From Sulfurimonas sp. HSL3-1 (GTDB taxonomy: Bacteria; Campylobacterota; Campylobacteria; Campylobacterales; Sulfurimonadaceae), in contig NZ_CP147920.1 in NCBI RefSeq assembly GCF_039645995.1, positions 868,001 through 932,000 of the forward strand: a stretch of 64,000 bases of DNA, in the 5' to 3' direction. A program made the position numbers and the translations under genes. Each line of letters starts with the position of its first letter. Position 1 is the first letter of the stretch. The notes under the pieces were generated by a model. That model had not been told where the DNA came from. It saw only the letters and a list, made by a program, of their open reading frames with translations, and ran no database searches. This document shows, piece by piece, positions 45,986 to 63,233 of this stretch.

Positions 45986-46225
45986 TGCAGCCTCCTTTAT
46001 TGACGATAATGAACTGTTATGCACTGCCGGAAGGACCGGATAACCGTGCATAAAGTATTTATGCCTTCTTCGGAACCGACGGGGAATGCTTCATTTTCTT
46101 GTTCATCTCCGAAAGAGATGATTCAGTTGTCAGCTATGATATCTCATTTTTTGGATACTGTTCATACGAGCATTCACGCTCAGATCTGCTTCGCAGCTTC
46201 ATCCGCTGCAGTATGCGGCCGATGC

Positions 46226-46915
46226 CTATCGCCATATCCCTTTTCGCTTCTGCTCTCTCAGAACAGCGAGAGCCTCTTCCCTGATGAGGCTGGGATTGAC
46301 CTCGAGGATCTCTTTAGCGACGGGCTGCAGTTCAGGGACGTCGCCGACCTTCATCGCCTCCAGTGCCATGCGGACCTTGAAATGCAATTTGGCATTACTG
46401 GACAGGGACCATTTTGCGGACGCCGCGGTGAGGAACAGGTTGATATCCTGACGCTCGTCCAGGTGCTTCAGCAAAGCAATGATCGCATAGAGATATTCAA
46501 AGTCGCCGGTGGTGAAAAAGCAGGCCCAGTACATGTCGACTTTGGCGGGGGAGAGGGGTGCTGCATCCAGCAGCGCACTCGGCGATCGGCGCAAGGAGTG
46601 CATTAAGAGCGATTTGGCCGGTTCCCTGATGCCCTGTATTGTCTTCTCCCACTGCGCTTTCCGGGAAGCGTCATACATGGAAAAGAGCGAACTGAACGAC
46701 ATGAGCATCAGGGCTTTCGCATTTGGATTGGAGGCCATCTCGGAGGAGCCGAAAAAAGTAATGGCGCTGTCAATAAGCTCCGGTTGGGGATGGAGATAGA
46801 ATGTATGAACGAAACCCTGGAATTCATTCATCGTTGTAATGTTTTCAAGCTTTTGGGTTGCGTGCACGGCGATGCTCAACAGAAGGACGAACGATAAAAC
46901 AAGAAGCTTTTTCAT
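46226..46915 (-). CDS. secreted protein of unknown function
   Basis: 229 residues with a signal peptide (MKKLLVLSFVLLLSIAVHA, cleaved after about 19) and a good AAAGGAG site. The mature part is helical with repeat-like segments (PAKSLLMHSLRRSPSALL; EYLYAIIALLKHLDERQDINLFL; LQPVAKEILEVNPSLIREEALAVL), suggesting an alpha-solenoid, but no family is recognised. Likely periplasmic. Confidence 0.6.
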   Translation of the reverse strand: MKKLLVLSFVLLLSIAVHATQKLENITTMNEFQGFVHTFYLHPQPELIDSAITFFGSSEMASNPNAKALMLMSFSSLFSMYDASRKAQWEKTIQGIREPAKSLLMHSLRRSPSALLDAAPLSPAKVDMYWACFFTTGDFEYLYAIIALLKHLDERQDINLFLTAASAKWSLSSNAKLHFKVRMALEAMKVGDVPELQPVAKEILEVNPSLIREEALAVLREQKRKGIWR

Positions 46916-47331
46916 GTCTACTCCTTTGTAGCCGACACTCTCCAGACGCTACAGCACTATAGCAGGACGAGCTTTGTCGTTGCCGTAAGGCGCCCAACAA
47001 CTAACAGATAAGAACCATTGTACATGTTCAAACTTATTCCAACCAAAACTATTCATGTTAATTCTACCTGAATCGACTGTTTTGTGCATGGCTTGAGGAG
47101 AAACGAATGTACCATCCTTCGATGCGGATGACGGGGGAACCCACGTCTATGCAGGTTTTTGGGCGGGGTTGTGGAATGGATAGCGCAGAAGACATGGAAA
47201 CAAAACGTGAGGACTCTCCCGATCGTTGCAAACGGCAACGGCATTGAAATATGGAATTTAAGCAAATCGAATAAACGGTAATATACAATATATGATGCTT
47301 AGAAACATAAAGTAAAAAGGAGGTGGATCAG
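46916..47331. other. 416-base intergenic region
   Basis: Divergent region between two secreted-protein genes. A possible small frame at 47107-47247 (46 codons, GAGGAG upstream) has atypical composition and is not called. The stretch TATGCAGGTTTTTGGGCGGG near 47149 would read YAGFWAG, loosely like the start of RDD-domain proteins, so a decayed gene is conceivable. An AT-rich block at 47275-47315 probably holds the promoter of the 47332 gene. Confidence 0.35.
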
Positions 47332-48480
47332 ATGATGAGAGTACTTATTGTGGCGATCTTTTTACTGACAGGAGGGATAACAATGGCATCGGAATTAACA
47401 CAGGAAGAGCAGATCAGGCAGTTGGAGGACGAGACCAAGCTTTTAACGAAAAAATCGGCATTGGTACAAGCGCAAAAAGCATTGGCGGATGCCGAGGCGG
47501 AGATGGATTCTGCGCAACTTCAAAAGATCAAAGCGGCACTGAGCGAGTGGAAGCTGCCCGAGGGGAACAAGGGGACGGTGACGGTCTCGGATGGGAAGGA
47601 TAACATGGCGCTGCTTCGGAGCAAGCGCCCGATGCTGGCGTTGATGGACGAGATTGCCGATACGCTGGTCGATCTCTGCCCTGAAGGAGCCGTTCTGGTC
47701 TCGGAGGCGGAACTGAAAAAGGCATATATGTCAGCGTACACGCTCCGTATGATCGACGAATCGATTGCGGCGCTGCAAAGCTTCAATGCGCAAGCGACGC
47801 AGCCCTCGCAGGGGGAATCCATGAAAATGCAGGGAATGGCCGCTGCGATATCGTTGCTTGGCGTCGTCCCGGAGGTCATCGAGAGTGTTTCCAAACTCTT
47901 TCGCGTTGACCGCTCCATCACGGTGTTCAATGATGAAGCGGAGGCGGAAACGATCCTGAAAAATCTGCTGGATTCAAAAGCGAAAAGCAGATTTGTGACC
48001 CATCCGGCAGCCGTGGGCGGCAGAGCCCAAAAGGAGGCAGAAGCACTGTTGGAAAAAAGAACCACTATGAGCCGCGAACTCGGCGCTGCCATGATAAACC
48101 TGGAACGCGCTAAAAAGACGTCGGAGGGCGATGGCGCCGTTTTGGCCATGATAGAGACGGACATTCAGCATGCCAAAGCACTGCTGGAGACCCTGAATAA
48201 GAGCGAGGAGTTCTGGAATCAGGTTGAGGGGCAGATGATCGCATCGTCGATCAAGGAGAAGGATCTTCTTTTTCTGAAAACGTCGGTCCAGACGCTCCAG
48301 GTTAAAGAGTCGCGTTGGTATGCGAGTGACAAGTTGTTTGCCGTCGGTGAAGTGCAGGTCCTTTACCGGCTGACAGACCCCGATGGGGCGGTGAAGAAGG
48401 CCGGTGTCATTTTGAAATCTTCCAGGGCGGAAAATCTGTGCCTCGATAGGCTGCAACCTGCTGACTGGTCGCGGCCGTAA
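47332..48480 (+). CDS. secreted coiled-coil protein of unknown function
   Basis: 382 residues from the ATG at 47332, with AAAAAGGAGGTG upstream. A signal peptide (about 1-20) is followed by a coiled coil (EEQIRQLEDETKLLTKKSALVQAQKALADAEAEM) and mixed helical regions. A hydrophobic patch (GMAAAISLLGVVPEVIESVSKLF) in the middle may be membrane-associated. I recognise no family. It is probably periplasmic, with no clear partner nearby. Confidence 0.65.
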   Translation: MMRVLIVAIFLLTGGITMASELTQEEQIRQLEDETKLLTKKSALVQAQKALADAEAEMDSAQLQKIKAALSEWKLPEGNKGTVTVSDGKDNMALLRSKRPMLALMDEIADTLVDLCPEGAVLVSEAELKKAYMSAYTLRMIDESIAALQSFNAQATQPSQGESMKMQGMAAAISLLGVVPEVIESVSKLFRVDRSITVFNDEAEAETILKNLLDSKAKSRFVTHPAAVGGRAQKEAEALLEKRTTMSRELGAAMINLERAKKTSEGDGAVLAMIETDIQHAKALLETLNKSEEFWNQVEGQMIASSIKEKDLLFLKTSVQTLQVKESRWYASDKLFAVGEVQVLYRLTDPDGAVKKAGVILKSSRAENLCLDRLQPADWSRP

Positions 48481-48507
48481 CGGGCAGTCTTCTGTCGGGA
48501 ACTGTGA

Positions 48508-48648
48508 TCAAAGGAACGCCTGTTTATGCAGGGTTCTAAACGCGGCGTTGAGGCCGTCATTTATTTGAATAGAGCGGTTCATCCACCTGCTCATGCCACG
48601 TTTCATCTAAAGGATGGAACGTCCGGAATATGCCTTGACATTTCCGTA
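48508..48648 (-). pseudogene. decayed 3' end of an acyl-CoA-dehydrogenase-like gene
   Basis: Read on the minus strand, 46 codons end in NDGLNAAFRTLHKQAFL-stop. This matches the C-terminus of the gene at 54673-55560 (NANGLNTTLKNLYKQAFL). Upstream, SGRSIL-stop-MKR lines up with GGSSVLATER, with one internal stop. At DNA level CCTGTTTAT.CAG and TTGAG.CCGT are shared. Nothing of the 5' part remains. It abuts the end of the DUF255 gene. A remnant of a paralogue or of a recombination event. Confidence 0.7.
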
Positions 48649-48658
48649 CGCGGGTCAG

Positions 48659-50599
48659 TCAGTATGAAAATTTTTCCCGGATGGTGTCGGCGATTTCCAC
48701 CGGCGTTTTCAACTGTGCGAAACAGCTCTGTGTCCCGCAGAGCATGTAATTTTTGTTATGGGTGGCTTTGACGCGAACGTAGGGGTAGGTAACCTCGGCC
48801 AGGGAAGGGGCGGCGTCCGCCAGTTTGTCGGCATTGGCTTTGACAAGCAGGTCTTCGAAGCGGTAGCGGATCGCCTGGTTGAAGAGGTGGGGGTAGCTGA
48901 TGGGCGCTTTCGCCAGGTTGGCGGAGTAGAACTGCAGGGTTGTGAAGGCGAATTGCCGGTAGCTGTCATCCTGGAGAATGCCGAGGCTCAGCAGCAGATC
49001 GACGATCACGCCGATGGAACCGGGGTAGAGCGCGTCTGCCGGGTCCGCCTCCGTCGTGAACGCCCCGCGGCTCAAATACCAGCGTCTGTTCTCATAGAAG
49101 ATATCCAGCGCATGGTCGGCCATCCGCTGCGCCTGCATGAGCCAGACGTTGTCATAAGTCGCTTCATACGCTTTGATAAACGCGGTGCCGAGGTAGGCGT
49201 AATCTTCCAAAAAGGCGCCGACCTTCGGGGTGCTGTGAATGAGGCCCGAGTGAAAGAGCGCTCCCTGGGGCATCACAAAATCCATAAGCGCCTCCAGCGC
49301 ATCGACGGCCTTTTGCGTGTAGATGGGGTCGGATTTCCCCAGCTCAAAGAGGCCGCGGATCATCATCGCGCTCCACGAGGTCTGGACTTTGCGGTCGATA
49401 AAGGGGTATTCGCGCGCTTCTCTCAGGGAGAGGAACACGTCCCGCACGGCATCGAACCACTCCGGTCGGTCAGCGGGCGACTCGAGCCAGACGATGTTGC
49501 GGCCCATGAAGTTGCCCTCTGGCGTCACATGCAAGGTGGCGAGGATCGTTTCCGTATCGTCCGCACTGAACCCGTGTTCGAGCAGTGCGGTTTTGGCCGT
49601 GTCGTAGTCAAACGTGTAGTAGATGCCCTGCTTGCCTTCGGTGTCGGCATCGCTGGCGGAGTAGAAGAGGCCGTCTTCTTGCATTTTCCCGGTCATAAAG
49701 TCGGCGACCTCTTTGGCAATGAGGGTATAGCTCGCGTCATTCAACATACGTCCGGCACGGGCATAAAGCTCGCAGTGCAACCCGTTGTCGAAGGTCATCT
49801 TCTCAAAACGTGGCACCAGCCAATCTACATCGGTACTGTAGCGGCAGAAGCCGCCGTCGATGAGGTCGTACATGCCGCCCCGGTGCATCGCCGATAGGGT
49901 CTGCGTCAACATCTTCTCGGCATCGGGATTGTTTTGCAGCAGCGAGATGTCCAGCAGCGCGTTGAGGGTGTAGATCTGAGGGAATTTCAGATCATTCGAA
50001 AAGCCGCCGCTGTTCGGCTCGAAAATGCGCAGCGCCTGTTTGACGAAGCGCTGGGTCAAAGTGGCATTGAGCTGTTTTACCTCGACGGCTTGCGAGGCGG
50101 GTTTGTCCAGATAGGCCTGGATCTCGTCAGCGCTTTTGAACAGGCTCTCATCTTTTTGCGCCACTTTGGTCGCAATGAGTTTAGAGAGCTCCGTGAAACC
50201 GATCTTCTCTCCGCGGGAGTCCGGCGTGATGTAGGTACCGGCAAAGATGGGCCGGTTGTCCGGCGTGCAGAAGACGGAAGTGGGCCATCCGCTCGGTTTG
50301 CGGTTCAACAGGTGGTGGACCTCCTGGTAATATTTGTCGATATCCGGGCGCTCTTCACGATCAACTTTGATGCAGATATAGTGTTCGTTCAGGATCGCGG
50401 CGATTGTTTCATTGCTGAACACGTCGTGCTCCATGGCGTGGCACCAGTGGCAGGTGCTGTAGCCTATAGAGATGAAAATAGGGCGTGCTTCCGTACGGGC
50501 GCGTTCGAACGCTTCGTCGCACCAGGGATACCAGTCTATGGGGTTGTCTTTGTGTTGCTGCAGATAGGGGGAGTCTTCGAGTTCAAGTCTGTTGGGCAT
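48659..50599 (-). CDS. thioredoxin-domain protein of the DUF255/YyaL family
   Basis: 646 residues from the ATG at 50599. An N-terminal thioredoxin-like domain carries [16 protein letters not shown], with C50 and C53 as the CxxC pair. A long alpha/alpha-toroid region resembling glycosidase or cellobiose-epimerase folds follows (for example [33 protein letters not shown]). Family members (YyaL, spermatogenesis-associated protein 20) have unknown function. Length is normal. Confidence 0.9.
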
Positions 50600-50763
50600 G
50601 GGCTTCCGATCTGTTTTGGGAAAGGACTTTAACAAACGAGTTTATGTTTGTGTCGCGCGTATTGCGTATTGAGCGATAGTCCTTTACTTTTGTGCGATGT
50701 GCAAGTTCCGCTCTTTTGGTCTTAACGCCCTTTTTTTGATTCGACTACATATGTGTAAGACAA

Positions 50764-51087
50764 TCATGCGTGCGATAAGTGATGTGTTTCTATGATCTCG
50801 GTAAATGCCGCTTGGAGCACTGCTTCGTCCGGGAGCTCACCGCGCGCTGCTTTGCCCCGAAGATCGTAGAGCTCAAAAAGACGTGCAACATCTTCTTGTT
50901 TTAATTCGAAGCCTTTTGCTTCGATTGACCGCAGAAGTCCTTCGCTGACAGCAATTTGGTGTTCTTTATTTGCCACTGTCCACGCTTCACCCATGTACCA
51001 GTAGACAACCATGTCAGTGACCGGATAATGTCCTTTTTTGATGTAGGTGTAGTCGTTAAAATATCGTTCCAGTCTATCCAATTGCAT
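50764..51087 (-). CDS. small hypothetical protein
   Basis: 107 residues from the ATG at 51087; AGGAGG stands six bases upstream, whereas the ATG at 51093 abuts that site. Soluble and helical (RLERYFNDYTYIKKGHYPVTDMVVYWYMGEAWTVANKEHQIAVSEGLLRSIEAKGFEL). I recognise no family. It lies 96 bases downstream of trxC on the same strand and may be co-transcribed. Confidence 0.6.
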   Translation of the reverse strand: MQLDRLERYFNDYTYIKKGHYPVTDMVVYWYMGEAWTVANKEHQIAVSEGLLRSIEAKGFELKQEDVARLFELYDLRGKAARGELPDEAVLQAAFTEIIETHHLSHA

Positions 51088-51182
51088 CAGCATCCTCCTG
51101 GCTCACATAACAGGAGGTGTGCAAAAGTCAGTCTATGCGTTAGAAAAAGGGCAAAAATAGGGACAAGCCTGACGGCATGATA

Positions 51183-51617
51183 TTAGACGATGTACTTCCC
51201 GGTCCACTTGTGGATCTCTTCCACGCTCATCGCCCTGCTTCTGCGGTTGATCTCATACCCGTTTTTAAAGAGAATGAGTGTCGGGACGGAGCGGATGTTA
51301 TAACGTGATGCAAGTAAATTTTGCACATCGGTATCGACTTTGAGGAAACGGGCCTTCATCGGCAGGGCTGTGGCCGCCTCTTCGAATGCCGGGGCCATCG
51401 TGCGGCAGGGACCGCACCAGGGCGCCCAGAAATCGACTACTACCACGATGTCGCTGTTCCAGATATGTTTGATAAATGCCGCTTCGTCCACGCCGACCGG
51501 TTTCGTCTCCAGCAGCGAAGCCCTGCAGTGAGTGCAGTCGGCTTCGCTGTAGTGCTCCTGTATAGGAATGGTGTTGATCTCGCCGCAATGGGGACAGACC
51601 ATTTTTTGTGTATCCAT
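51183..51617 (-). CDS. trxC: thioredoxin 2 (TrxC type)
   Basis: 144 residues from the ATG at 51617. An N-terminal zinc ribbon (C8, C11, C28, C31) precedes a thioredoxin domain with the active site WCGPC (C68, C71) and the cis-proline segment RSVPTLILFKNG. This two-part plan is that of TrxC, a cytoplasmic reductase induced by oxidative stress in E. coli. It marks the edge of normal GC composition before the AT-rich island. Confidence 0.93.
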   Translation of the reverse strand: MDTQKMVCPHCGEINTIPIQEHYSEADCTHCRASLLETKPVGVDEAAFIKHIWNSDIVVVVDFWAPWCGPCRTMAPAFEEAATALPMKARFLKVDTDVQNLLASRYNIRSVPTLILFKNGYEINRRSRAMSVEEIHKWTGKYIV

Positions 51618-51779
51618 GACGTTATGCCTTCTGTGTCTCGATTTCTTTCTGCTTCTCCCTTGCAAGTTTCAAACTATGAAAGATGAAACAGTACATCTGG
51701 GATTGCCAAGGCTTTGTCTTTGAATACGCGTGTAATAAAGTTCGACTTCTGAACATAGCGTCCAGGTGCGATAGGATCG

Positions 51780-51848
51780 GGCTAAGGTTCAAAAGGAGCC
51801 AACAAATTACCCTTGGGGCAATTTATTGGCTCCTCTGATTTGTTAGGG
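51780..51848 (-). other. attC-like palindromic element at the end of the 51782 gene
   Basis: On the minus strand, CCCTAAC begins a 69-nt palindrome: AGGAGCCAA ... AAATT ... AATTT ... TTGGCTCCT, followed by TTTTGAACCTTAG. The ends resemble integron attC boxes, but the right core reads CTT rather than GTT. The hairpin plus TTTT could equally be a terminator. The last codons and stop of the upstream gene lie inside it. Confidence 0.4.
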
Positions 51849-52273
51849 CTATGTTCGAATATATTTAAGTGGACATGGTAAATGTCATTATTTAATTCTA
51901 GTACTGGCTCATATTCCCGTACCAAGTAAGGCTTGTGGGATATTTCCAAATTAAAGTTGTCCAGCCATTGTATAGTTGGTCTTTCATGCACTTGTGAATG
52001 CCAAACTTGCCAACGATTTCCCAATTTATCGGTGCCTTTTTGAGCTTGGAGAGTCAAATAATAGATAGGGAATGTATTTGTTTCAGTAGAAATACCCCGT
52101 TCAAGAACAGCAATTACAATTCCATTGGGGCTAGGGTGTTTGCTGACAACTGACACGTCAAGATCCTTCTTGACTTTTCCTGCCAATATCAAGTATATAC
52201 TCATTCCAAGTAAAGAGACAACTCCGATCAGTGCCAAAATATTTTTGGTAAATCTCCATGCTTGCATGTGCAT
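51782..52273 (-). CDS. membrane-anchored protein of unknown function
   Basis: 163 residues from the ATG at 52273, which lies on the last base of an attC-like box (GTTAGAATG); a TTG at 52294 falls inside a hairpin arm and is rejected. One N-terminal span (ILALIGVVSLLGMSIYLILAG) and an exterior domain (VIAVLERGISTETNTFPIYYLTLQAQ). No family recognised. AT-rich codon use unlike the flanking genes. The 3' end is encoded by a palindrome. Confidence 0.55.
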   Translation of the reverse strand: MHMQAWRFTKNILALIGVVSLLGMSIYLILAGKVKKDLDVSVVSKHPSPNGIVIAVLERGISTETNTFPIYYLTLQAQKGTDKLGNRWQVWHSQVHERPTIQWLDNFNLEISHKPYLVREYEPVLELNNDIYHVHLNIFEHSPNKSEEPINCPKGNLLAPFEP

Positions 52274-52345
52274 TCTAACGCTTGTACACACCAATAAGAA
52301 ACCTGCGTGAAGGTTTCTTATTGGTGGTGCCGTGATTGGTTAGAT
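52273..52345 (-). other. attC-like recombination site
   Basis: Minus strand, 73 nt: ATCTAAC (fits RYYYAAC) two bases after the stop of the 52348 gene, then a perfect 14-bp stem CCAATAAGAAACCT-6 nt-AGGTTTCTTATTGG, then ACAAGC-GTTAGAA (fits GTTRRRY except the last base). The two ends are complementary at six of seven positions, and CAAGCGTTAGA is what many integron attC sites carry. The next gene's ATG begins at the last base. A strong terminator is the alternative. Confidence 0.5.
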
Positions 52346-52347
52346 CT

Positions 52348-53196
52348 TTAACGTTCATCGAAGCTCACCCATACATATTTTTCTAATACAGTTTGAACAG
52401 ATTTTATATCCACTTTTTTTCCTGCCTGAATTGTGCCGACAACCTTCCCAGAGTTTTCTTCGAGGATAGGTATTTTGGTACTTGATATAACTTTATTTTT
52501 GAATGAAACTTGAAGGCCTTTCATGACTGGTACTTTTGTTTTTATTTCTCTAGTTTCATATCGGATAGATGGGGGCTGCTCTCGAACTAAAACAGCTTTT
52601 GTAGCTAATGCTGATTGGTTTGCCGTAGGTAACGTATCTACGTCTTTATGTTCTAAATTGAAATTTTTACTAGACCATACCCACTCACCATTTTCATTTT
52701 TCCCCCCTTCTCCGTAAAGAGCAAATCCATGTAGCTTTGGAGTCTCACTTATGACTTTGAAGTTTTTATGCTTGTTGGTCTTGATTTGTTTCAATAGTAA
52801 GTTGAACTTTTCTTCGTAAGCCGCTGAAACTTCGGCAATTTTTTGATCCATTTTTGCATTGGCCTGAGACCGGGCTTCTACCATCAGTTCTTCAAGTCTA
52901 GCATCAACTTGTGTTTCTACGTCTCTCTGCAATTCAGGAATGACGCTTTTAGCAATAGCTTCGGCAACCTTCGTGCCCCCAATATCGACAATTTCCTTGT
53001 AACTTTGGTAGCCTATGGCACCTAAGAGTAATGCAACAAAAAGACTAAAATATTTAGCAGTAGTAGATAGCTTCTCTTTTGCAGCTAGATAGACTCGTTG
53101 TGCTAGAACATTTTCTACCTCAGGTAAAATCTGGTCAATTTTTGTTTCAATTGATTTGAGGCGAACATCTATTTTTGATGTATTTTTTTCATCCAT
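52348..53196 (-). CDS. membrane-anchored coiled-coil protein of unknown function
   Basis: 282 residues, AAGGAGAG before the ATG. A short cytoplasmic coiled coil (about 5-35), one span (about 48-64), a long charged helical region (about 75-145, VETQVDARLEELMVEARSQANAKMDQKIAEVSAAYEE) and a C-terminal domain (VVGTIQAGKKVDIKSVQTVLEKYVWVSF) that resembles a bacterial SH3 fold. No family recognised. AT-rich; lies between a DUF900-like hydrolase gene and an attC-like site. Confidence 0.6.
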   Translation of the reverse strand: MDEKNTSKIDVRLKSIETKIDQILPEVENVLAQRVYLAAKEKLSTTAKYFSLFVALLLGAIGYQSYKEIVDIGGTKVAEAIAKSVIPELQRDVETQVDARLEELMVEARSQANAKMDQKIAEVSAAYEEKFNLLLKQIKTNKHKNFKVISETPKLHGFALYGEGGKNENGEWVWSSKNFNLEHKDVDTLPTANQSALATKAVLVREQPPSIRYETREIKTKVPVMKGLQVSFKNKVISSTKIPILEENSGKVVGTIQAGKKVDIKSVQTVLEKYVWVSFDER

Positions 53197-53214
53197 AAAA
53201 ACTCTCCTTATTAA

Positions 53215-53285
53215 ACCAAACGTTTAAAATAAGCAATCAAAAGGTCGTCCGCGGGTTTTTGATTGGGTTTCTCTATTGTTCTTAT
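53215..53285 (-). other. palindromic element after the hydrolase gene, possibly a degenerate attC
   Basis: About 71 nt. CAATCAAAA (53234-53242) and TTTTGATTG (53257-53265) form a perfect 9-bp stem around a GC-rich loop. AAGAAC and GTTTGG stand at equal distance outside the stem, where attC sites have their AAC and GTT cores, but the full consensus is not met. Its length matches the two better elements in this island. Confidence 0.3.
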
Positions 53286-53352
53286 CTACCAATAAACAGA
53301 TTCAAAAACATGTAAGAATCACAAGAAATTTTTTGTCCGTATTTAGAACTTG

Positions 53353-54339
53353 CTATGTATTTATAGGCTTTAGTACTAATTCACCATTCTCTACAGTTCG
53401 AGTTGGAATCTTATGTCGATCTATATCTCCTGAAATGGTTGAAGCTAAATCTTGAGCAAACGTAGTATCACCAATATGCCATGAGTGGGGAAAACTTCCA
53501 TAATAATCTATACCTTGGGTGAGTGCATCTTCATCAAGTTGATAAAAGTATGGCCCACAATTAACATTAACAGCTTTTTCAGACGCGTCGTTTGGTAAAC
53601 CAACCCGACCTACTCTAGGAGCCAGCCCAATTCGTTTTGTATTGGAGAGCTTTAATACAGAGTCATACGGATTTTGGTAGTTCGTTAAGCGCACACAATG
53701 GCGGTACAGAGATTTTGATTTACTATCATTTTTATTCAAGGAACGACTGGATATATCTCCGCCAATAAATGCAATCTGGCTTACTGTCCAAGGACGATTC
53801 TTTATTGAAGTTTTTTCATCTGCATCTGCAAAAGCGTGTCGGATGACATAAGCACCTGTTGAATGTCCAAGTAAATGCACATTTATTTCACATCCTGCTA
53901 GCTGCTGTGATGAAAATAGACTGATACAGTCATCCCTTAACCTCCTAGCAGTGTCCTTCGCATCATCACGATCTTCTAAATAATTCAAGCCTGATTGTGC
54001 ACTTGGCCAATCGTAACTAATCACAGCACCTTGATAGCCTGCACTTCTTAAGTCTTCAGCAAGTTTTCTATGTCTTTTAAGGACTATTTCTTGACTATTG
54101 TTGTAGCCGTGAATAAATACTAAGATGTCACCGGTGGGATTTCCTGAAAATTCATTTTTCCCAGTTTCTGCCTGTGCCAGTACTGTAGAAACCCATTCAC
54201 GACGTGCAATAGCGTGAGATGGTATTGGATATTCATTACTTGGTACTTTTAGAAACATAGTAGGACCAGGCTCATTACCAAAAATTTGAGCACCGTTTAA
54301 GGTTTTCTTATTTCGAACACAAACAATAAAGTCATACAT
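53353..54339 (-). CDS. alpha/beta hydrolase, DUF900-like
   Basis: 328 residues, TAAAGGAGATTG before the ATG. The segment GDILVFIHGYNNSQEIVLKRHRKLAEDLRSAGYQGAVISYDWPSAQ and nucleophile elbow GHSTG (S160) place it among DUF900 alpha/beta hydrolases; a late histidine (FPHSWHIG) could complete the triad. No signal peptide, so cytoplasmic. AT-rich codon use sets it apart from the chromosome around it. Substrate unknown; esterase or lipase-like activity is the best guess. Confidence 0.8.
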   Translation of the reverse strand: MYDFIVCVRNKKTLNGAQIFGNEPGPTMFLKVPSNEYPIPSHAIARREWVSTVLAQAETGKNEFSGNPTGDILVFIHGYNNSQEIVLKRHRKLAEDLRSAGYQGAVISYDWPSAQSGLNYLEDRDDAKDTARRLRDDCISLFSSQQLAGCEINVHLLGHSTGAYVIRHAFADADEKTSIKNRPWTVSQIAFIGGDISSRSLNKNDSKSKSLYRHCVRLTNYQNPYDSVLKLSNTKRIGLAPRVGRVGLPNDASEKAVNVNCGPYFYQLDEDALTQGIDYYGSFPHSWHIGDTTFAQDLASTISGDIDRHKIPTRTVENGELVLKPINT

Positions 54340-54581
54340 TACAATCTCCTTTATGTAAATTAATAACTATTTTTTTGTTGCTAATAATGTCATCTTGCTG
54401 GAATGCCTATTGTTGTCAAGAACCCTTGTGTGTTAGACCAGTGGGTTTTTGATCGCAATTTTAAACAAATTGAAATATATCTTTCAATACTATTATTTTT
54501 TTCTTAAAATAATTTTATTTAATGAATCTTTGTATTTTGAGAGATGGACAATTTGTCTATCTCTCAATTAGAAGTATGCAT
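54340..54581. other. AT-rich region with a 14-bp perfect hairpin
   Basis: Upstream region of the hydrolase gene. TTGAGAGATGGACA-ATT-TGTCTATCTCTCAA (54537-54567) is a 14-pair stem with one G.U. A second, weaker inverted repeat TCAAGAACCC/GGGTTTTTGA (about 54417-54452) has GTTAGAC in its loop. No gene seen. The block TGTATT-GAG-GATGG-AATTTGTC near 54531-54557 recurs imperfectly at 54600-54624. Confidence 0.5.
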
Positions 54582-54668
54582 ATTTAACACTATGTCTTGT
54601 GTATTGGAGGATGGCTAATTTGTCAAAGAAGAAGCTTCGAAGCTCTCGCGACACAAAAGGCGTTTAGT
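54582..54668 (-). other. possible attC-like boundary element of the AT-rich island
   Basis: Minus strand: ACTAAAC four bases after the stop of the acyl-CoA-dehydrogenase-like gene, an inner palindrome AGCTTCGAAGCT, TTGTGT pairing with ACACAA, then GTTAAAT, which fits the integron core GTTRRRY. The left box deviates from RYYYAAC at one base. Composition changes sharply here from GC-rich to AT-rich. Confidence 0.3.
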
Positions 54669-54672
54669 ACGT

Positions 54673-55662
54673 CTATTGGAGTATTGAGAGAAATGCCTGT
54701 TTATACAGATTTTTGAGAGTGGTATTGAGCCCGTTGGCATTAAACATGACGAGTTCGCGGTAGTAGCGTTGCAGCCGTTCGGTTGCGAGGACGGAGCTGC
54801 CGCCTTTGAGGATCATGCCGGTGGTGACTATGCGCTGGACGAGTTCAAAAAGTTCGACGCGGAGTGTGTCGAGTTCCGCGCCGTCTTTCGAGTCGAGGAA
54901 GGCGTCTTTCACCGTTTCCAGAGCCGCTTTGGCTTTGCGCCGGACCTCCTCGTCCTCCAGGGCATCCACGGCGCCGAGGCCGATGCCGTAGAGGGCATAG
55001 TGGATCGTTTTGGAGACGGATTTGTTCTTTGTGTAGGTGCCGAGGGGGTGTGAAGCAACGATGTGTTCCTGCGGCACTTCGTACTCGTCCAGGACGATAT
55101 CGACGGTATGCATTGCGTTGCCGACGAACGTTTCGGTCGGGGTGCCCAGGGTGAAGCCCTTGCGGGGTTCGAAGGGGATCATTGCCTGCAGCTCCCGCCC
55201 TTCGCAGTGGAAACCGACGACGAGGGTGTCAAAGATGCCGTAGCCGCTGGCCCATGTCAGGCGGCCGCTCAGGCGGTAGGTGCCGTCCTGCTTCGTGGCG
55301 GAAACCACCGTAACAGGGGCGCGCAGGTGGTTGATGGCGATCCCGCAGCGTCTGTTCAGGTAGGTTTCCATCAGCGCAAAACGGTTGGCGTGCATGATCT
55401 TGTTCGCCGCGAGGATCTGGATGGCCAGAAAGGCGAGGCTGCCGGAGCGGGGGGCAAGCGTGGTGAAGAGGCGGAATTTCATCTCATCGTGCAACTCGGG
55501 GGAGTAGCGGTGAAAGGCAAAGACGCCCGCATCATAGATAAGGTCGAAGGCGCTTTTCAACGCGGCCGTTTCGCTGTCAAGACGGTAGAGCGGCAGGGTG
55601 TCGAGCTGTGCCGCCGTCGCGTCGAGCTGTCGGGCGTAATGGGTCTCGTCGTATGGAAGAAT
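54673..55662 (-). CDS. acyl-CoA-dehydrogenase-like protein with uncertain start
   Basis: The smallest version starts at TTG 55560 (295 residues). The coding pattern, however, continues 34 codons upstream to an ATT at 55662, preceded by AAGGAG at ideal spacing, with no ATG/GTG/TTG in between. The protein has part of the N-terminal helical domain, the beta middle domain (RRCGIAINHLRAPVTVVSATKQDGTYRLSGRLTWASGYGIFDTLVVG) and a short C-terminal helical domain. The catalytic glutamate region is unclear, so it may not be an active dehydrogenase. Confidence 0.65.
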   Translation of the reverse strand: MLPYDETHYARQLDATAAQLDTLPLYRLDSETAALKSAFDLIYDAGVFAFHRYSPELHDEMKFRLFTTLAPRSGSLAFLAIQILAANKIMHANRFALMETYLNRRCGIAINHLRAPVTVVSATKQDGTYRLSGRLTWASGYGIFDTLVVGFHCEGRELQAMIPFEPRKGFTLGTPTETFVGNAMHTVDIVLDEYEVPQEHIVASHPLGTYTKNKSVSKTIHYALYGIGLGAVDALEDEEVRRKAKAALETVKDAFLDSKDGAELDTLRVELFELVQRIVTTGMILKGGSSVLATERLQRYYRELVMFNANGLNTTLKNLYKQAFLSILQ

Positions 55663-55708
55663 GGCGGACTCCTTGGGCGGCCGAGGGCCGAGAAATGGTG
55701 TTGGCGGT

Positions 55709-56209
55709 CTAGGCCTCTTCGGCGGGATCGATCTTTTTGTAGGCGATGACGCGGAAAGGCTCGAAGCCCAGCTTTTCCCAGGTTGCCTGCGCGGCGAGGT
55801 TCGACGCCATATAGCTCAGTTCAATGATGTCAATGGCCATGGAGCCGAACCAGGCCTGAAGCTGTTCGTACATCCGCACGCAGTGGTCCGCCCGCCGAAA
55901 ACGCGCATCGACATAACAGAGCCCGATCCAGCCGACGAGTCCCAGCCCGGAAGCACTGAGGTGCGACGGGGCGATTTTGCCCATGATGCAGCCGATCTCC
56001 TCCCGGGCGTTTTGCAGGATGAAGGTCCGCGCTTTGCGTTCGTCGAGGTACTCCAGCAGGTACGTCTCCATCTCCTCGACGCTCAGCGCACCGAACCCCT
56101 TGCAGTAGGGGTCTTTTCCCTGTGCCATCAGATAAAGAAAGGTCTTGTGGAGTGCTTCCGTGAGGAAGGGCAGGTCCTCTTCCGTCGCCCGGCGCAGTTC
56201 GATAGCCAT
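55709..56209 (-). CDS. GNAT-like N-acetyltransferase
   Basis: 166 residues. The fold order fits GNAT: FLTEALHKTFLYLMAQGKDPY, then KARTFILQNAREEIGCIMGKI, then LCYVDARFRRADHCVRMYEQLQAWFGSMAIDIIELSYMASNLAAQATWEKLGFEPFRVIAYKK. The acetyl-CoA loop is degenerate, so substrate and activity are uncertain. It lies upstream of the acyl-CoA-dehydrogenase-like gene on the same strand and is probably co-transcribed. Confidence 0.75.
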   Translation of the reverse strand: MAIELRRATEEDLPFLTEALHKTFLYLMAQGKDPYCKGFGALSVEEMETYLLEYLDERKARTFILQNAREEIGCIMGKIAPSHLSASGLGLVGWIGLCYVDARFRRADHCVRMYEQLQAWFGSMAIDIIELSYMASNLAAQATWEKLGFEPFRVIAYKKIDPAEEA

Positions 56210-56384
56210 AGCACCCCTTTGGTTCGTCTGCAGGTATTTTACTCTGTCGGCGGTTCAAATACACTGTGCACACGGCGCTCTAATACCCCGGAAGCCCGGG
56301 GATTCGGCCGGTCTGCAGGGAGTGTAAGTGGGATGTAAGTATGAATTGGTGAATCGATGAGGTGTGCTGTCAGCACACCCCGGG

Positions 56385-59300
56385 TCAGGTGAATGCCGGC
56401 GGCACGGGGAAACGTGCATCCATGCGCCCCTGGTTGGTGGCCAGCAGGCCGGCGAGGGAGGCGATGCCGTGGTCGATGAAGTCGATCGGATCGAGGGGGC
56501 TCGTGTGCGCGGTGTCTTCAAAACCGGTCAATTCGGTAAACGTCAGGTCGATGCCCTGGTTCATGATGTCGCCCGGGATTTTCGGCGCATTGTGGCCGCT
56601 GGGGATATCAAAGGCCAAGAGGCTGTGAATGATTTCGTGCGACATGATGCTCCCGAGCAGGCGGCCCAGCAACGTGGTGGCAAAGCTTTCCAGGTCCGCC
56701 GTCATGGTTTGGTTCTGGATCTGGATGAGCAGCGCCTGGACTTCGATGCTGATCTCGTGCGAGTTTGAATCGTCCAGTGCTCCCGGGTAGATGTCGATGG
56801 TCTCGTTGAGAACGGCAGCGCCTGCCGGTGTATGGGTGACCCCCGGTGTCCCGGCATAGATTGCCGGCGGTTCGTTGTGAATCTTCAGCGTCGTCACATG
56901 GTTCGCGGGAAGATGGGCGGGCACTGTCTCGCTGAACGGGCCGACGCGCCAGATCGTGCGGACGTTCGACGTTTTCAGCAGATAGTCGCACACCTCTTTC
57001 GCCTCCTGCAGTACCTCGTTCTTCTTGGCGTCCAGTTTGAACTGCGCAAGGAAGTCGTCAAAGGGCGTCGGCGACGCAATGGCATCTTCGTCGATGGTGA
57101 CAAACTGGGGAATGCAGAGCGTCAGTTTCTGGCTGGCCACGGCGCTCCCCGCGCTGTCGCGGACGCTAAAGTCAAGCTCCTGCAGCCCCGGCTTCTTGCC
57201 GCGAACGATGGTCCGCAGGCTGTTCTGCGCGTCGATGTCCATTGCATCGACATCGGGGCGCGTCCAGCGGTGCGAGCCGCCTGAAGGGGCGTTGTTGATC
57301 TGTGCTGCGACTTCAATGACGCCGCTTTTATCATCCCTGGAGGGGAAGAACGCCCTTGAATCGGGACTGCTCTGCGGGGTCGGTAAAACGATCGCCGTCT
57401 TTGTCGAAAATTCCAATTCGGCCGCCGCGTCCTGGGGGCGGGCATCCACTTCGATCTGCTCGCCCGACGGACGGTTGACCTTGACAGAAGCTTTGTTGTC
57501 CCCGGCGCTCTTCGCCAGATCCTTGACCTCGTCCACCGTCGTGCCCTCTGCCTCTTTCTTTGTCGGTTCACCGACCATGGAGCTGAGCGCGCTGTAGGAG
57601 AGGCCGTTCGCCTGCGTATCGGAGATCTGGTTTTTCTTCTTGGCGTCGTCGATGGTCTGCAGGGTTTTGCCGATATCTTTTTTCATTGCCGTCTGTTTTT
57701 TCAGATCCGCCGCCATACCCGCCAGGTCGGTAACGCTTTTCGAGGTGGTCTCGAGGGCTTTGATGGCGTTGGCCTGGGTGCCGGCGAGACCGGTCATGTC
57801 TTTGAAGGCGTCGCTCTTGCCCAGCAGTTCGAAGGCGGCGCCCAGTCCGGTCGGGTCCGGGGCGTTCGGCGCGGTCTGCATATTGATGATGCTCGACGGG
57901 AGATCCTTGACCTGCAGACTGCCCACATCCGACTGGCGGCTGGCGGTGGAGACAGGGGAGATCGGTGTCGGCGTCGTTCCGCACGGCTCGTCCTTGAAGC
58001 GCCAGTGCCGCGTATCGTCGATCGGTTCGCAGCTGTTGCATTTGCCCATGACGGATTCGGCGTAGACGCCTTTGGTCGGAACGCTGATGCGGAACGGGTC
58101 GGGTTTCGTCGCGGTCTTGTAATGGCCGATCAGGTCCTCGACATTCCTGAAGACGGGGTCGAGCCTCTCCCCCGGGACGACCTTGAGCACCAGGTTGTTC
58201 CCGACGACGCCCATCACTTTGTTCTCGACGACGCTGGCAACGCTCTTGTTGCCGGAGTTGGGGGCGATGTAGCCGTCGAGCAGGCCGAAGAGGCGGCTGG
58301 CATCCAGGCTCGTCCAGATGACCTTGTGCGACAGTTCCAGATGTTCGTTCAGGTGGCTGACCAGCGCCGCGGCAGCTTTGCGGTCCTCTTTGCGCGGGTC
58401 TCTCAGTTCCCTGTCCGTCAGCGGTGTATAGAGCAGCGCGGCATCGGTCACCACTTCAATCGTGGGGTCGAACCAGACGCCGCTGACCTTGACGATGTTG
58501 ATGATGTCGTTGTTGACGCGGCCGTTTCGGACGATGTAGCTGCTCATGTGGTTGGTCCGGTAGTGCAGATAGGCCGTACGCAGAATGATCTTTGACGAGG
58601 CGTGCACGGTCGTATTGGCCCGGAAACGGAGGTGCTGGATCTGGCGGCGCGTCACGGTCGGGATCTCCTTGCTGGCGATGTTCACCTGCAGCGCGACCCC
58701 TTTGCGGTAGTTCGACATCAGGGTGTAGTCCAGGTCCAGACGCACGTCGTTGCCGTTCTCGTCGATCCCGTAGATGTCGATGGTATCGATGAATTTGCGG
58801 ACGATCTCCGGTGCGTAGTCCGCTTCGAAAATGGCGTCTTTTTCCGCTTCGGTCAGCGGGACCTCTTTGTCGTAGGTGAATTTCAGGACGTAGGGGTACC
58901 AGAGGAACCACTCCTTGAGCTCAACGGTCTCCGTGATGGTCTTCGTCTGCTCCTCGATCTGGCTGATATAGGGGCGTTTCAGTTCGAAGGAGATGGAGAA
59001 GTGGCCCGAAAAGTTCTGAATAATCTCGTCGGCATAACTCCCCTCCGGCAGGTCGGAGTCGGCGTAGCTGTTCGCCATGCGTTCGATGGCGTCGAATCCG
59101 CGGCGCAGCTGCGTACCGTAGACCGCTCTGCGGAGCGTGTCTTTCCAGCGCAGGATCTTCGCGTGGTCGAAATCCGACATCGGCAGGGGAACGAAGAGGC
59201 ACTCCTGCACATCCGCAAGCTCCTGTTCGATGGCGTAGTGCTTCAGCACTTCGAAATACTCCACGGTCATGGCGTGGCAGTGGTTGTTGTTTTTGACGAC

Positions 59301-61895
59301 CTCGGTCTGTACGGTCATCGTCTCGTTCTGGCCGACGGTCTGCACGACCGTACTGCGCTGGCTGCGGAGCGACGAGGCCGACTGGGAGATGTTGTCCTGC
59401 AGACGGTTCAGCGTGCTGCCGGAGAGGTTCCTGGCCGAATCCTGGTTGGCCGTCGAGCGCGACGAGGCGCCGGAGTGGGAGACCCCGCCGAAGAGGCCGC
59501 CGATTCCCCCGACGATCCCGCCGCCTATGCCTGCGCTCGTGCTGCTGGTCTTGTTGGTGGAGCTGGCGCTGATGTTCTCCTGGAAACTCGAATTGATGAT
59601 TTCACTGATGTCTCTGTCGCGGGAGAGGTCCGCCGTGAGCGACTCGGCGACCGTTTGCGCCTCCGTGCGTGATGCACGCTCCTCACGGTCCCAGTCGATG
59701 ATGGCGATCTGTTTCTCCTGGCAGGGGGCCAGCGGCAGGCTGTAGAGCAGGTCGCCGAGGGAGTAGCCGTCCGCTTTCCACTTCTGCTTGAAATGGAGGA
59801 TATGCCCGTGGGCGATCGTCGTGTTCTCGTACACCGTCGGCGTCTCGTCCCAGTCGATGCTCGTCTCCACGGTCAGCTCCCTGCGGCCGGGATGGTTCAG
59901 AATGTAGGCCGCTTCCAGCGCCTCGATCCGGGTGATGGCCGCGTAGATCTGCCGCTTGAGGGTAGAGAGGGCGCTCTTGGTGCTGTGGTAGTGTTCGACA
60001 AAATAGTCATCCTCTAGGGAGATCAGGAGGTTGGAGCCCGTCGTATAGAAGGTGTGGAAACGTTCCAGCAGGCTGAGGAAGGCGGAGATGCTGGTCACGT
60101 AGGTATCGTAATTGTCGCGGATCGAGAGAATTTCGCCCAGGGTGAAGACCGTCTTGTTGCGGAGGGTCTCCTTGATCTGCTCGAACTGCTGCATGATGCA
60201 GAGGATCCCCATCGTATCGGTTTCGCGGGTGGGGCAGGGTTCGAAGGTATAGAACCCCTTCTGGTCCACTTCGGCCAGCTCGGAGACGAGGCGCCTGAAG
60301 TAGCCGAGCAGCTCCTCCTGGTCCTGGGACTCCTTGGTCTGGGTATCGATGCTCCCGATCAGTTTTTCGGCGCGTTTTTGCATGACGGTGATCAGACCCG
60401 CGTCAACGAAGGGGTGTTTGACCAGCGCCTGGAAATCTTTGATGTAGTCGCGTATCTGGTTGGGGAGGGCGTTCCCGGCGAACAGGGTGCTGTTTTCCGC
60501 GTCGGCGTAGGTTTTGATGTGCCCCAGCAGGGAGGAGACCGTGGCGCGGTTCAGCGCGTCTTCGGAGGCGAGGGATTCGCAGTATGTCTCCGCTTCCCGG
60601 GCCCCTTTTTTGCCGCAGTACGCGGCTGCGAGTTCGCGGTGAAGCTCCTGCAGCGCCGTTTTGCGGCGCGCCTGTTCGGCGAGGATTTTCAGCAGGGCGC
60701 TGAAATCCAGTTTGAATGAGGTCAGGTTCGCGGAACTGAATTTAAGCTGCCCGACGGCGGTCTCCATCTTCAGGTGATAGACGGGTACGGTGGTGAACTG
60801 GGCCGTGCCGCTGCTGAAAGAGCGCATCATGACCGGCTCCGCCACGGCGGCGGGCTGCTCCGTCGTCATCGCCTGCGCCGTCTTCTCGTCGTCGACCGTA
60901 TAGGCGTTCAGGGAGAGCGTCTTCATGGAACTGTTCATGCGGCTGAAGACGCCGAAAAGTGTCTCCGAAATGTCGAGCAGCTCCGTTTTGAGCTTTTTGC
61001 TCTCTTTTGCGGTGATCGTCAGCCCTCTGATCTCGGGCTCGGTCGTCCGGACGGTATGGTAGAAACTGTACTCCTCGAGGGTGCGGTTCGGGATCGTAAA
61101 GTCGACGCATTTGCCTCCAAGGTCCTGGGAGAAGGAGGGGTTGCCGATCATTTCGGCCGTCTCCGGAAGCGTCGGAGTGCTTCCGGTGTCTCCGACGCCT
61201 TCGGGAAGTAAAGAGAGGTCGGCGACGAGCAGGATGTTCTTGGGGATGATCTGCTTGTTCTCCTGCGTCGAGAGGGTGACGGGAATAGGGGTCTCCTCCA
61301 GGCCGGCGACGATGCCGTACGCCTGGGCATAGTCCTCGCTGCCGACACGGGCGAAGAAACTCCCGTCCTTGTTGGTCCAGACCGAAAAGAGCGGATGGAA
61401 GCCTTCGCTCCCCGGGTCGGCGTCAGGGTCCGTCGTCACCATGAGGACGACGGAGAGACCCGCAGCGCTGCGCTCGCCGGAAATGTCCACCAGCATGCCC
61501 GAAACGAGCCGGGAGTCGTCCGTGATAGGATTGGAGTCGCCGAAGGTGATGACCTTGGGGTCGACACCGATTTCCATCGGCTGCGTGTCATCTTCGGCGC
61601 TTGCGTCCGTATTGGACGCGTTGAGGCTGCCGTAACTGTAGATCTGCGAGCCGAGCAGTTCGCCGTCGGGCGCGTAGACTTCTACGGTGACGGATTGGCT
61701 GGCCAGCAGCTCCTGTTGGGGCAGGAAGAAACGGAAAGCGCCGTTGGGCTGGACATCGACACGGTCTTTGCTGTAGGTCGAATGGCCGCCGATCTCCTGA
61801 ATATAGCTTACCTTCAGAAAGTGTCCAAGGTATTGGTCTGTGACGTCGGTGTCATCTGTCGGTTTCAAGATGCCGTTGATACTTACTCTGCTCAT
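56385..61895 (-). CDS. giant multidomain protein with C-terminal metallopeptidase-like domain
   Basis: 1836 residues, no signal peptide. In order: beta-rich N-terminal region (about 1-240, with SGMLVDISGERSAAGLSVVLMV like a carboxypeptidase-regulatory domain); helical region (about 385-680); LLYSLPLAPCQEKQIAIIDWDREERASRTE (about 715-745); a Gly/Ser-rich stretch near 785-810; a beta-rich region (about 960-1240); coiled coil (about 1355-1440); an Ig-like region; and a metallopeptidase-like end with HEIIH at 1753-1757, D1763 in the third-ligand position and IMN (M1778) as a Met-turn. No family recognised. Composition is native. Confidence 0.85.
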   Translation of the reverse strand: MSRVSINGILKPTDDTDVTDQYLGHFLKVSYIQEIGGHSTYSKDRVDVQPNGAFRFFLPQQELLASQSVTVEVYAPDGELLGSQIYSYGSLNASNTDASAEDDTQPMEIGVDPKVITFGDSNPITDDSRLVSGMLVDISGERSAAGLSVVLMVTTDPDADPGSEGFHPLFSVWTNKDGSFFARVGSEDYAQAYGIVAGLEETPIPVTLSTQENKQIIPKNILLVADLSLLPEGVGDTGSTPTLPETAEMIGNPSFSQDLGGKCVDFTIPNRTLEEYSFYHTVRTTEPEIRGLTITAKESKKLKTELLDISETLFGVFSRMNSSMKTLSLNAYTVDDEKTAQAMTTEQPAAVAEPVMMRSFSSGTAQFTTVPVYHLKMETAVGQLKFSSANLTSFKLDFSALLKILAEQARRKTALQELHRELAAAYCGKKGAREAETYCESLASEDALNRATVSSLLGHIKTYADAENSTLFAGNALPNQIRDYIKDFQALVKHPFVDAGLITVMQKRAEKLIGSIDTQTKESQDQEELLGYFRRLVSELAEVDQKGFYTFEPCPTRETDTMGILCIMQQFEQIKETLRNKTVFTLGEILSIRDNYDTYVTSISAFLSLLERFHTFYTTGSNLLISLEDDYFVEHYHSTKSALSTLKRQIYAAITRIEALEAAYILNHPGRRELTVETSIDWDETPTVYENTTIAHGHILHFKQKWKADGYSLGDLLYSLPLAPCQEKQIAIIDWDREERASRTEAQTVAESLTADLSRDRDISEIINSSFQENISASSTNKTSSTSAGIGGGIVGGIGGLFGGVSHSGASSRSTANQDSARNLSGSTLNRLQDNISQSASSLRSQRSTVVQTVGQNETMTVQTEVVKNNNHCHAMTVEYFEVLKHYAIEQELADVQECLFVPLPMSDFDHAKILRWKDTLRRAVYGTQLRRGFDAIERMANSYADSDLPEGSYADEIIQNFSGHFSISFELKRPYISQIEEQTKTITETVELKEWFLWYPYVLKFTYDKEVPLTEAEKDAIFEADYAPEIVRKFIDTIDIYGIDENGNDVRLDLDYTLMSNYRKGVALQVNIASKEIPTVTRRQIQHLRFRANTTVHASSKIILRTAYLHYRTNHMSSYIVRNGRVNNDIINIVKVSGVWFDPTIEVVTDAALLYTPLTDRELRDPRKEDRKAAAALVSHLNEHLELSHKVIWTSLDASRLFGLLDGYIAPNSGNKSVASVVENKVMGVVGNNLVLKVVPGERLDPVFRNVEDLIGHYKTATKPDPFRISVPTKGVYAESVMGKCNSCEPIDDTRHWRFKDEPCGTTPTPISPVSTASRQSDVGSLQVKDLPSSIINMQTAPNAPDPTGLGAAFELLGKSDAFKDMTGLAGTQANAIKALETTSKSVTDLAGMAADLKKQTAMKKDIGKTLQTIDDAKKKNQISDTQANGLSYSALSSMVGEPTKKEAEGTTVDEVKDLAKSAGDNKASVKVNRPSGEQIEVDARPQDAAAELEFSTKTAIVLPTPQSSPDSRAFFPSRDDKSGVIEVAAQINNAPSGGSHRWTRPDVDAMDIDAQNSLRTIVRGKKPGLQELDFSVRDSAGSAVASQKLTLCIPQFVTIDEDAIASPTPFDDFLAQFKLDAKKNEVLQEAKEVCDYLLKTSNVRTIWRVGPFSETVPAHLPANHVTTLKIHNEPPAIYAGTPGVTHTPAGAAVLNETIDIYPGALDDSNSHEISIEVQALLIQIQNQTMTADLESFATTLLGRLLGSIMSHEIIHSLLAFDIPSGHNAPKIPGDIMNQGIDLTFTELTGFEDTAHTSPLDPIDFIDHGIASLAGLLATNQGRMDARFPVPPAFT

Positions 61896-62222
61896 GCCGT
61901 ATCCTTTAGAGTGAACAGTCGGGGGAATCTGACGCTGGTTCAGATAGGGGTTGACGGTTGCTTCCGCGTTTCAGAAAAATTCTTTTTTGTCGACATCCCA
62001 ATAGCGCGTCAAAAAAACAGTGCATCGCCGGCAGGCATCTATCAAAACGGTACAAAAAAGCAGACACGATCAAGTTAACAGTAAAAAACTTAAATAACAA
62101 TTATTTAACTTAAAATAGATTTTTTTCGTTTTCTCGGGGGATGGCAACGCCGACGGAATGCGGACCGTTCCGCGTCGTTCGGGAGAGGTGGCGGGTCGTT
62201 TCTCTTTCGGGCGCGGAGTGGG
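61896..62222. other. intergenic region upstream of the giant gene
   Basis: 327 bases without a gene. A perfect palindrome TTAAATAA-CAA-TTATTTAA lies at 62090-62108 within an AT-rich block (62050-62125), followed toward 62200 by GC-rich DNA. The block probably contains the promoter of the 1836-residue gene, about 195 bases upstream of its start; the palindrome is a candidate operator. Confidence 0.45.
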
Positions 62223-62633
62223 TTATGCGCGGGAGGAGAGCAGGGCAAAGAGCATGCCCAGAGAGAGACAGAGAGGAGAAAAGTATTTTGTGTCGTACGC
62301 CGCAAAATCCGTGGCGTTGATTTTTTTAAAAAATCCAACGGCATTGAAGTCGCCGACAGCCCGCAGAATGAACAGTATTGAGAGTACCCAGCCTGCAGTG
62401 AGAAGCGGTTTTGCAGGGGAGGCATCGACGTAAAGCGCGTAGGCCACAAAGGCACACCCGAACAACAAAAGCGCGACGGCAAAGGTGAGGAGGCGGCCGG
62501 GGTTGAGAAGGCGTTTGCCGTCCTTCGTCGGCAGCGCCCTGTTCAGGCCTGCTTCCCCGCCAAAGGCCCAGTAGATATGGAACAGAGCCGTTACGATCAG
62601 AAGCGTGATGGCGGCAAGGACGATAAGCGTCAT
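62223..62633 (-). CDS. DUF3995-like membrane protein
   Basis: 136 residues, four spans. The N-terminal IVTALFHIYWAFGGEAGLNRALP and the later AVGDFNAVGFFKKI match DUF3995, an inner-membrane family of unknown function. It overlaps the DUF1801 gene stop by four bases on the same strand, so the two form an operon. Confidence 0.8.
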   Translation of the reverse strand: MTLIVLAAITLLIVTALFHIYWAFGGEAGLNRALPTKDGKRLLNPGRLLTFAVALLLFGCAFVAYALYVDASPAKPLLTAGWVLSILFILRAVGDFNAVGFFKKINATDFAAYDTKYFSPLCLSLGMLFALLSSRA

Positions 62634-63052
62634 TTTGGTTTTTTCGGCGCGTTGGGTTTCTGCTTCATAACCCGGATGCTGGCCTTCACCAGCTTTTCGA
62701 CCAGCGCCTTCGGTATGGCTTTGTCTACCGGGAAACTGATGATGGATTTGGTCGTCGCGTAATTTTCAAGCTCCTCTTGATGCTCTTCAAGCACCGGAGG
62801 CCGCACATGCAAGCGGACATGGGGACGCTTGTAGCTGAACCAGGCGAACATGCCATGATAGTCATACCCCTCATAAAGATAACCGGGCATTTCAAAGTAA
62901 CTGACGGTTTCCGTGGCATCCGGCGCGGCGGCCTCTATAATGCCGCGGATCTCGTGTAAACGATCGCGTACCTCCTGCGGGTATTTTTCGATGTATGCGT
63001 CAACGCCTCCGGGGACGATCTCGGGGGATCTGCTATTTGCCTTTCGTGCCAT
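62630..63052 (-). CDS. DUF1801 domain protein
   Basis: 140 residues from the ATG at 63052, with GGAGG eight bases upstream; the longer frame to 63091 lacks a site. The DUF1801/YdhG pattern is clear: YIEKYPQEVRDRLHEIRGIIEAAAPDATETVSYFEMPGYLYEG and the C-terminal ISFPVDKAIPKALVEKLVKASI. Function unknown; some relatives bind iron-sulfur-scaffold partners. Soluble. Confidence 0.88.
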   Translation of the reverse strand: MARKANSRSPEIVPGGVDAYIEKYPQEVRDRLHEIRGIIEAAAPDATETVSYFEMPGYLYEGYDYHGMFAWFSYKRPHVRLHVRPPVLEEHQEELENYATTKSIISFPVDKAIPKALVEKLVKASIRVMKQKPNAPKKPK

Positions 63053-63082
63053 AGGGCACCTCCAAACGTCTGGGTAAAGTGC

Positions 63083-63106
63083 TGTTGGCACTGAGGCGTG
63101 CCAACA
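63083..63106. other. 9-bp perfect inverted repeat upstream of the DUF1801 gene
   Basis: TGTTGGCAC-TGAGGC-GTGCCAACA, 31 bases upstream of the DUF1801 start. It may be an operator, or a hairpin in the leader. No T-run on either side. Confidence 0.4.
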
Positions 63107-63191
63107 CCTGTTCTGATGGTTCCATCATAATCAAATAGTTCAAACCGGCCAAGAGCGATGAGAAAAAGCAGACGTGGAAAGGCGTGGCATC

Positions 63192-63209
63192 AAAAGCCCG
63201 GGGGCTTTT
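63192..63209 (-). terminator. bidirectional terminator-like hairpin after the RND gene
   Basis: AAAAGCCC-GG-GGGCTTTT, 25 bases beyond the stop of the partial RND gene. The A-tract, GC stem and T-tract are symmetric, so it could end transcription in either direction. Confidence 0.55.
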
Positions 63210-63233
63210 GGGCGGCGGGTGCGATATTGAGGC

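Follow-up and report, generated by a model that had tools for sequence, protein, structure and literature searches.

What remains of an integron once its integrase has gone, and can the loss itself be read at one locus? This question is raised by an AT-rich island in Sulfurimonas sp. HSL3-1, which was analysed within a 64-kb stretch of DNA (64,000 nt; hereafter the window). Genome surveys find CALINs (attC clusters that lack an integrase) in about the same numbers as complete integrons, and their origin is usually inferred, not seen. Loss of a recognisable intI is among the origins proposed for this category (PMC9024848, PMC8618304).

A first-pass annotation had described the island as a small integron cassette array without an integrase, in which each gene is followed by a palindrome of about 70 nt. 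Its account of an AT-rich island in GC-rich flanks was borne out by composition in the window, with a GC of 0.37-0.47 in the island vs 0.55-0.62 in the neighbouring DNA. The island is bordered by a thioredoxin gene (51183-51665) on one side and an acyl-CoA-dehydrogenase-like gene (54673-55560) on the other, and holds three minus-strand open reading frames, at 51782 (gene 1), 52348 (gene 2) and 53353 (gene 3). The structure further takes in 54361-54667, where 250 bp of leader, also AT-rich, adjoin what is left of an integrase gene. The three palindromes were confirmed at the claimed places and sizes (51780-51848, 69 nt; 52273-52345, 73 nt; 53215-53284, 70 nt), whereas the claim that each gene precedes its palindrome failed for gene 1, as its reading frame spans its own attC whole and has its stop in the R' box. 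The cassettes and their sites are arranged as follows:

51780-51848, minus strand: site A, attC of cassette 3 (69 nt; CCCTAAC ... CTTAGCC; crossover G mutated to C)
52273-52345, minus strand: site B, attC of cassette 2 (73 nt; ATCTAAC ... GTTAGAA)
53215-53284, minus strand: site C, attC of cassette 1 (70 nt; decayed, with a weak fold and R''/R' agreement of 6/7)
53221-54366, minus strand: cassette 1 (1146 bp), carrying gene 3 (53353-54339)
52279-53220, minus strand: cassette 2 (942 bp), carrying gene 2 (52348-53196)
51786-52278, minus strand: cassette 3 (493 bp), carrying gene 1 (ATG at 52273, stop at 51782)
51728-51779, no strand: left junction, about 50 bp outside the cassettes that separate site A from the conserved flank with the thioredoxin gene

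The left junction is possibly a cassette remnant. A short inverted repeat, GAACATAGC/GCTATGTTC (51752-51760 and 51849-51857), flanks site A outside the attC and lies partly in this stretch.

Consensus scans proved inadequate for judging these sites, since a strict scan returned site B only and relaxing it brought too much noise from the GC-rich flanks, and a covariance model was built instead. Candidate attC sites were taken, by their conserved ends and hairpin, from integrase-bearing regions of other genera in the class, and 32 aligned sites, none from the genus of the window, made up the model; the structure in it, from RNAalifold, has 14 pairs and is not complete, and part of each score therefore comes from sequence. 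With this model, trained on other genera only, the 64-kb window gave three clear matches, each in the island and on the minus strand: site A at 51848-51780 (60.5 bits, E 1e-11), site B at 52345-52273 (42.5 bits, E 2e-7) and site C at 53284-53215 (31.0 bits, E 1e-4). These were exactly the minus-strand matches in 64 kb, arranged head to tail within 1.6 kb, and the sole other matches were lower-scoring plus-strand mirror images of sites A and B, which are expected because the sites are near-palindromes.

As single-stranded DNA, the stretch around site A (51740-51875) folded with a z of -6.7 and that of site B with a z of -5.9, with 0/200 shuffles as good in either case, while the stretch of site C folded weakly against its shuffles (z -1.6). 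Folding energies were about -17.5 kcal/mol each for sites A and B and -6.7 for site C, and the long imperfect hairpin formed by the paired arms is accordingly clear at A and B and weak at C; in the reference attC set, arm swapping between sites halves the mean folding energy. Site C is 80-92% identical over 48-69 nt to attC sites of the sister species G304, and site B resembles an attC of a second relative, G191 (L067 4734-4805). Agreement of the R''/R' boxes (RYYYAAC / GTTRRRY) in the window was 6, 5 and 5 of 7 per cassette (P = 0.13, not significant, for the window alone), and this low agreement is read as decay.

The origin of the array became legible through the same locus in relatives. 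Window positions 46213-51727 align to G304 at 93% and 54663-63293 at 95%, the left alignment ending at 51727 (L039 6043), and between these flanks G304 carries a complete integron: an intact intI encoding 324 aa (TIGR02249, 421 bits vs a cut-off of 265), its leader and five attC sites. The G304 array includes a MazEF-type pair, a usual array stabiliser. Instead of three genes held as a fixed block with ordinary terminators, the relatives showed different cassettes at this place, with no near-identical cassette common to any two of the four species' arrays; one relative has its integrase intact, and the others have scars of it or a deletion. In the window the corresponding parts are:

54361-54610, no strand: leader with degenerate attI, separating the first cassette from intI
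54611-54667, plus strand: intI pseudogene stub of 18 codons (MANLSKKKLRSSRDTKGV and a stop), retaining about 12-15 codons from the start, and perhaps a few from the end, of an integron integrase of about 324 codons

Window positions 54442-54638 correspond to the leader and intI start of G304 (L039 10187-10384; 75%, E 1e-31), and the flanking DNA resumes at 54663, i.e., at L039 11327, just beyond the body of the G304 intI. The start of the gene reads ATG GCT AAT TTG TCA AAG AAG AAG CTT ... (MANLSKKKL) in the window vs MAIMSKKKLLDL in G304. The absence of an integrase, also part of the first-pass annotation, held genome-wide: a TIGR02249 search of the closed genome gave nothing above XerC/D level, the recombinases present are XerC/D-like only, and all that is left of an integron integrase is the stub. 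Two integrase-like matches elsewhere in the genome (938.7 kb and 551 kb) were rejected as IntI on their XerC/D likeness.

The same gene has been lost elsewhere in the genus. In G191 the deletion begins before the start codon of intI and reaches its last codons, whereas in G359 about 17 codons survive as a stub (MGKKLLDKVRDQISIRLEC) that runs straight into the flank. Since the breakpoints differ among the window genome, G191 and G359, the simplest reading of the alignments is that intI loss recurred at this locus in at least three deletions. The G359 leader is not alignable with the others (47-51% identity), and its platform may be a different type of integron at the same place. Two degenerate attC sites in G359 (L068 3726-3783 and 5810-5881), one of them with a gene reading straight out, are further signs of array decay after integrase loss.

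The attI adjoining the intI remnant is eroded but recognisable by alignment with relatives. Its crossover, GTTATTA, lies at 54367-54361, with the minus-strand G at 54367 and T at 54366; the motif ATAGTTA is common to the window, G304, G191 and G359, and the cut ATAG^TTA falls at 54367/54366. This placement was chosen because the 5' end of the first cassette matches its own attC R'' box in the relatives (7/7 in G304, G191 and G359). The sequence GTTAAAT (54582-54588), put forward earlier as a fourth candidate site and outer boundary, was rejected, having no model match and no conservation in relatives; the actual attI crossover is GTTATTA. Also rejected as a fourth attC was a palindrome at 54537-54567, which has no model match and has a counterpart in relatives, a hairpin at that position of their intI leader. 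This leader hairpin, between attI and intI, recurs in L070, L067 and L068 despite differing sequence, with compensatory changes, and so in all four species; it is possibly a control element of intI. A search for a Pc promoter reading into the cassettes found promoter-like sites at chance level (10 vs 9.8 expected).

Compared with the G304 leader, that of the window shows 71% identity, a divergence exceeding the 4-fold divergence of the flanking genes (0.16), whereas the leaders of G304 and G191 are 87% identical at a 4-fold divergence of 0.20. This extra divergence, judged over about 250 bp, would fit relaxed constraint or an older loss in the window lineage.

Given the intact intI of the sister species at the same locus, and the stub beside attI and leader in the window, we are highly confident that the island is a CALIN that arose on the spot when intI was deleted from a sedentary chromosomal integron, of which it is the relic. 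The proposal of an array without an integrase is thereby supported by the attC model, the relatives and the absence of intI. Under this reading, an intI reading rightward from about 54.6 kb would once have inserted circular cassettes at attI (54367/54366), its product acting on the folded attC sites of the cassettes to recombine them. Once the lineages of the window and G304 had parted, nearly all of the gene would have been lost to an internal deletion of about 0.9 kb, leaving the three cassettes then present frozen in place while attI and the attC boxes gathered mutations. Expression of the cassette genes may continue, but the genes would be immobile unless an integrase came from outside.

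Also in favour of this reading, cassettes move as units within the genus. In an integron, the R'' box has its complement in the 5' end of the same cassette, and agreement was 7/7 in five of five cassettes of G304, 4/5 in G191 and 3/4 scored in G359; over all four arrays, 60 of 68 outer bases matched vs a shuffle mean of 32 and a maximum of 48. Cassette 2 of G304 also occurs in G359 at another locus (1361.5-1362.6 kb), bounded by attC, and at 98.5% identity over 1079 bp the two copies are far closer than the species themselves (4-fold divergence 0.21). This movement lends indirect support to the sites being of the type that IntI would recombine as a folded bottom strand.

In the strongest of the alternatives, the array is still mobile through an integrase acting in trans that comes and goes, e.g., on a plasmid. 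The exchange of that cassette between species, with G359 now lacking a strong intI match, speaks for it. Against it, the attI and attC boxes of the window are eroded, the closed genome has XerC/D-like recombinases only, and no cassette gene of the window was found elsewhere in the genus; we consider continued mobility unlikely.

A second alternative is that a trans-acting integrase inserted the cassettes at an ordinary, attG-like site and that no integron ever stood here. The suggested genome-wide check for more attC sites found four further clusters without an integrase:

G000:C1 680480-680943 (L162): attC cluster with a carboxymuconolactone decarboxylase-type gene as cargo
G000:C1 800680-802153 (L161): attC cluster with zeta-toxin/AAA_33-like and dual-specificity-phosphatase-like proteins as cargo
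G000:C1 1176064-1177303 (L163): attC cluster in the same genome
G000:C1 1437700-1438060 (L160): attC cluster in the same genome

These lie mostly at places with attC in sister species too. At one of them, at the right end of its array, the insertion point AAAGAG^TT (AATAAAGAG^TT) is common to three species with different cassettes (L160, L164, L168); it resembles the attI crossover, and no integrase was found there. Insertion of this kind may fit such places, but at the window locus the sister species has an intI, and the stub, leader and attI of the window occupy the same place in the same orientation, making this origin very improbable for the island. That the island is an ordinary genomic one whose palindromes are transcription terminators or repeated hairpins can practically be dismissed, for although the palindromes stand at gene ends and site C is weak, the sites match a model of array attC from other genera, are absent from the terminator-like sites of our scan, and are of the same type as those bounding the cassette common to loci of two species.

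With the island taken as a CALIN left by intI deletion, a wider scenario may tentatively be drawn, although we think it somewhat less probable than its opposite: that an ancestral integron was repeatedly stripped of its integrase (three scars in four species) while cassette exchange continues at secondary sites, one of them AAAGAG^TT. If true, the genus would offer a natural series in which the integrase is selected against while the cassettes stay in use.

Three tandem attC sites, one open reading frame per cassette and the lack of an integrase gene in the window are shared with known CALINs (PMC9024848, PMC8618304), from which the island differs in that its origin is documented by the intI stub, the attI and the sister's intact integron at the locus. 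It has three same-strand attC sites within 1.6 kb, where a CALIN calls for at least two within a few kb, and no integron integrase next to them, and where a complete integron has a functional intI it retains the 18-codon stub only. A close parallel is with the chromosomal integrons of Xanthomonas (PMC12444791), where an ancestor at a fixed locus, repeated lineage-specific deletion or truncation of intI, and extra CALINs at conserved loci are likewise seen; here, in contrast, the host belongs to the Campylobacteria, the locus lies between thioredoxin and acyl-CoA-dehydrogenase-like genes, the attC sites are short (about 70 nt), and three deletions with distinct breakpoints are found among four species. 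Secondary attG insertion sites (PMC12444791, PMC12901181) may explain the other attC clusters of the genome, whereas that of the window occupies a former attI. As CALINs, their origin by intI loss and repeated intI inactivation are already known (PMC9024848, PMC8618304, PMC12444791, PMC2426708), the island is a known sort of element and an unusually well documented example of it: an intact integron, scars of the deletion and leftover cassettes are all found at one locus within a single genus, so that the 'lost integrase' origin can be read directly.

The view that cassette arrays are uncommon in Campylobacterota was only partly right. Integron parts are widespread in the sampled Campylobacteria, with a strong intI match in 44 of 397 genomes of the class (about a tenth) and attC matches at E <= 1e-6 in 73 of 357 (about a fifth), a count not wholly independent, as some of these genomes supplied training sites for the model; 43 of these 73 had no strong intI match. 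CALINs had already been tabulated for Sulfurovum sp. NBC37-1 and Sulfurimonas autotrophica (PMC10295459), and these CALIN and In0 records share the bacterial class and element category of the island but, in the tabulated part of that source, stand as table entries only, without origin, attI or relatives. An attC model now exists for a group absent from the paper on 11 taxon-specific models (PMC8352920).

Among the cargo of the array, gene 3 encodes a predicted 328-aa alpha/beta hydrolase (DUF900) with a GHSTG motif (PF05990, E 1.4e-18 in Pfam), matched on plasmids by distant alpha/beta hydrolases only. Gene 2, which had no plasmid match, encodes 282 aa, for the most part helical and probably including a membrane segment (the structure model has low confidence). 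Gene 1 encodes about 163 aa with an N-terminal membrane helix (structure model poor); the sole matches in the class to its C-terminal ~30 aa overlap or adjoin attC matches in G200, G298 and G309. No close homologues of the three genes were found in 396 other genomes of the class, nor did a defence-system search with the cassette genes give a match. Rfam, at gathering thresholds, gave no match inside the island. Elsewhere in the window, a c-di-GMP-I-GGC riboswitch aptamer lies at 20119-20193 on the minus strand (67 bits).
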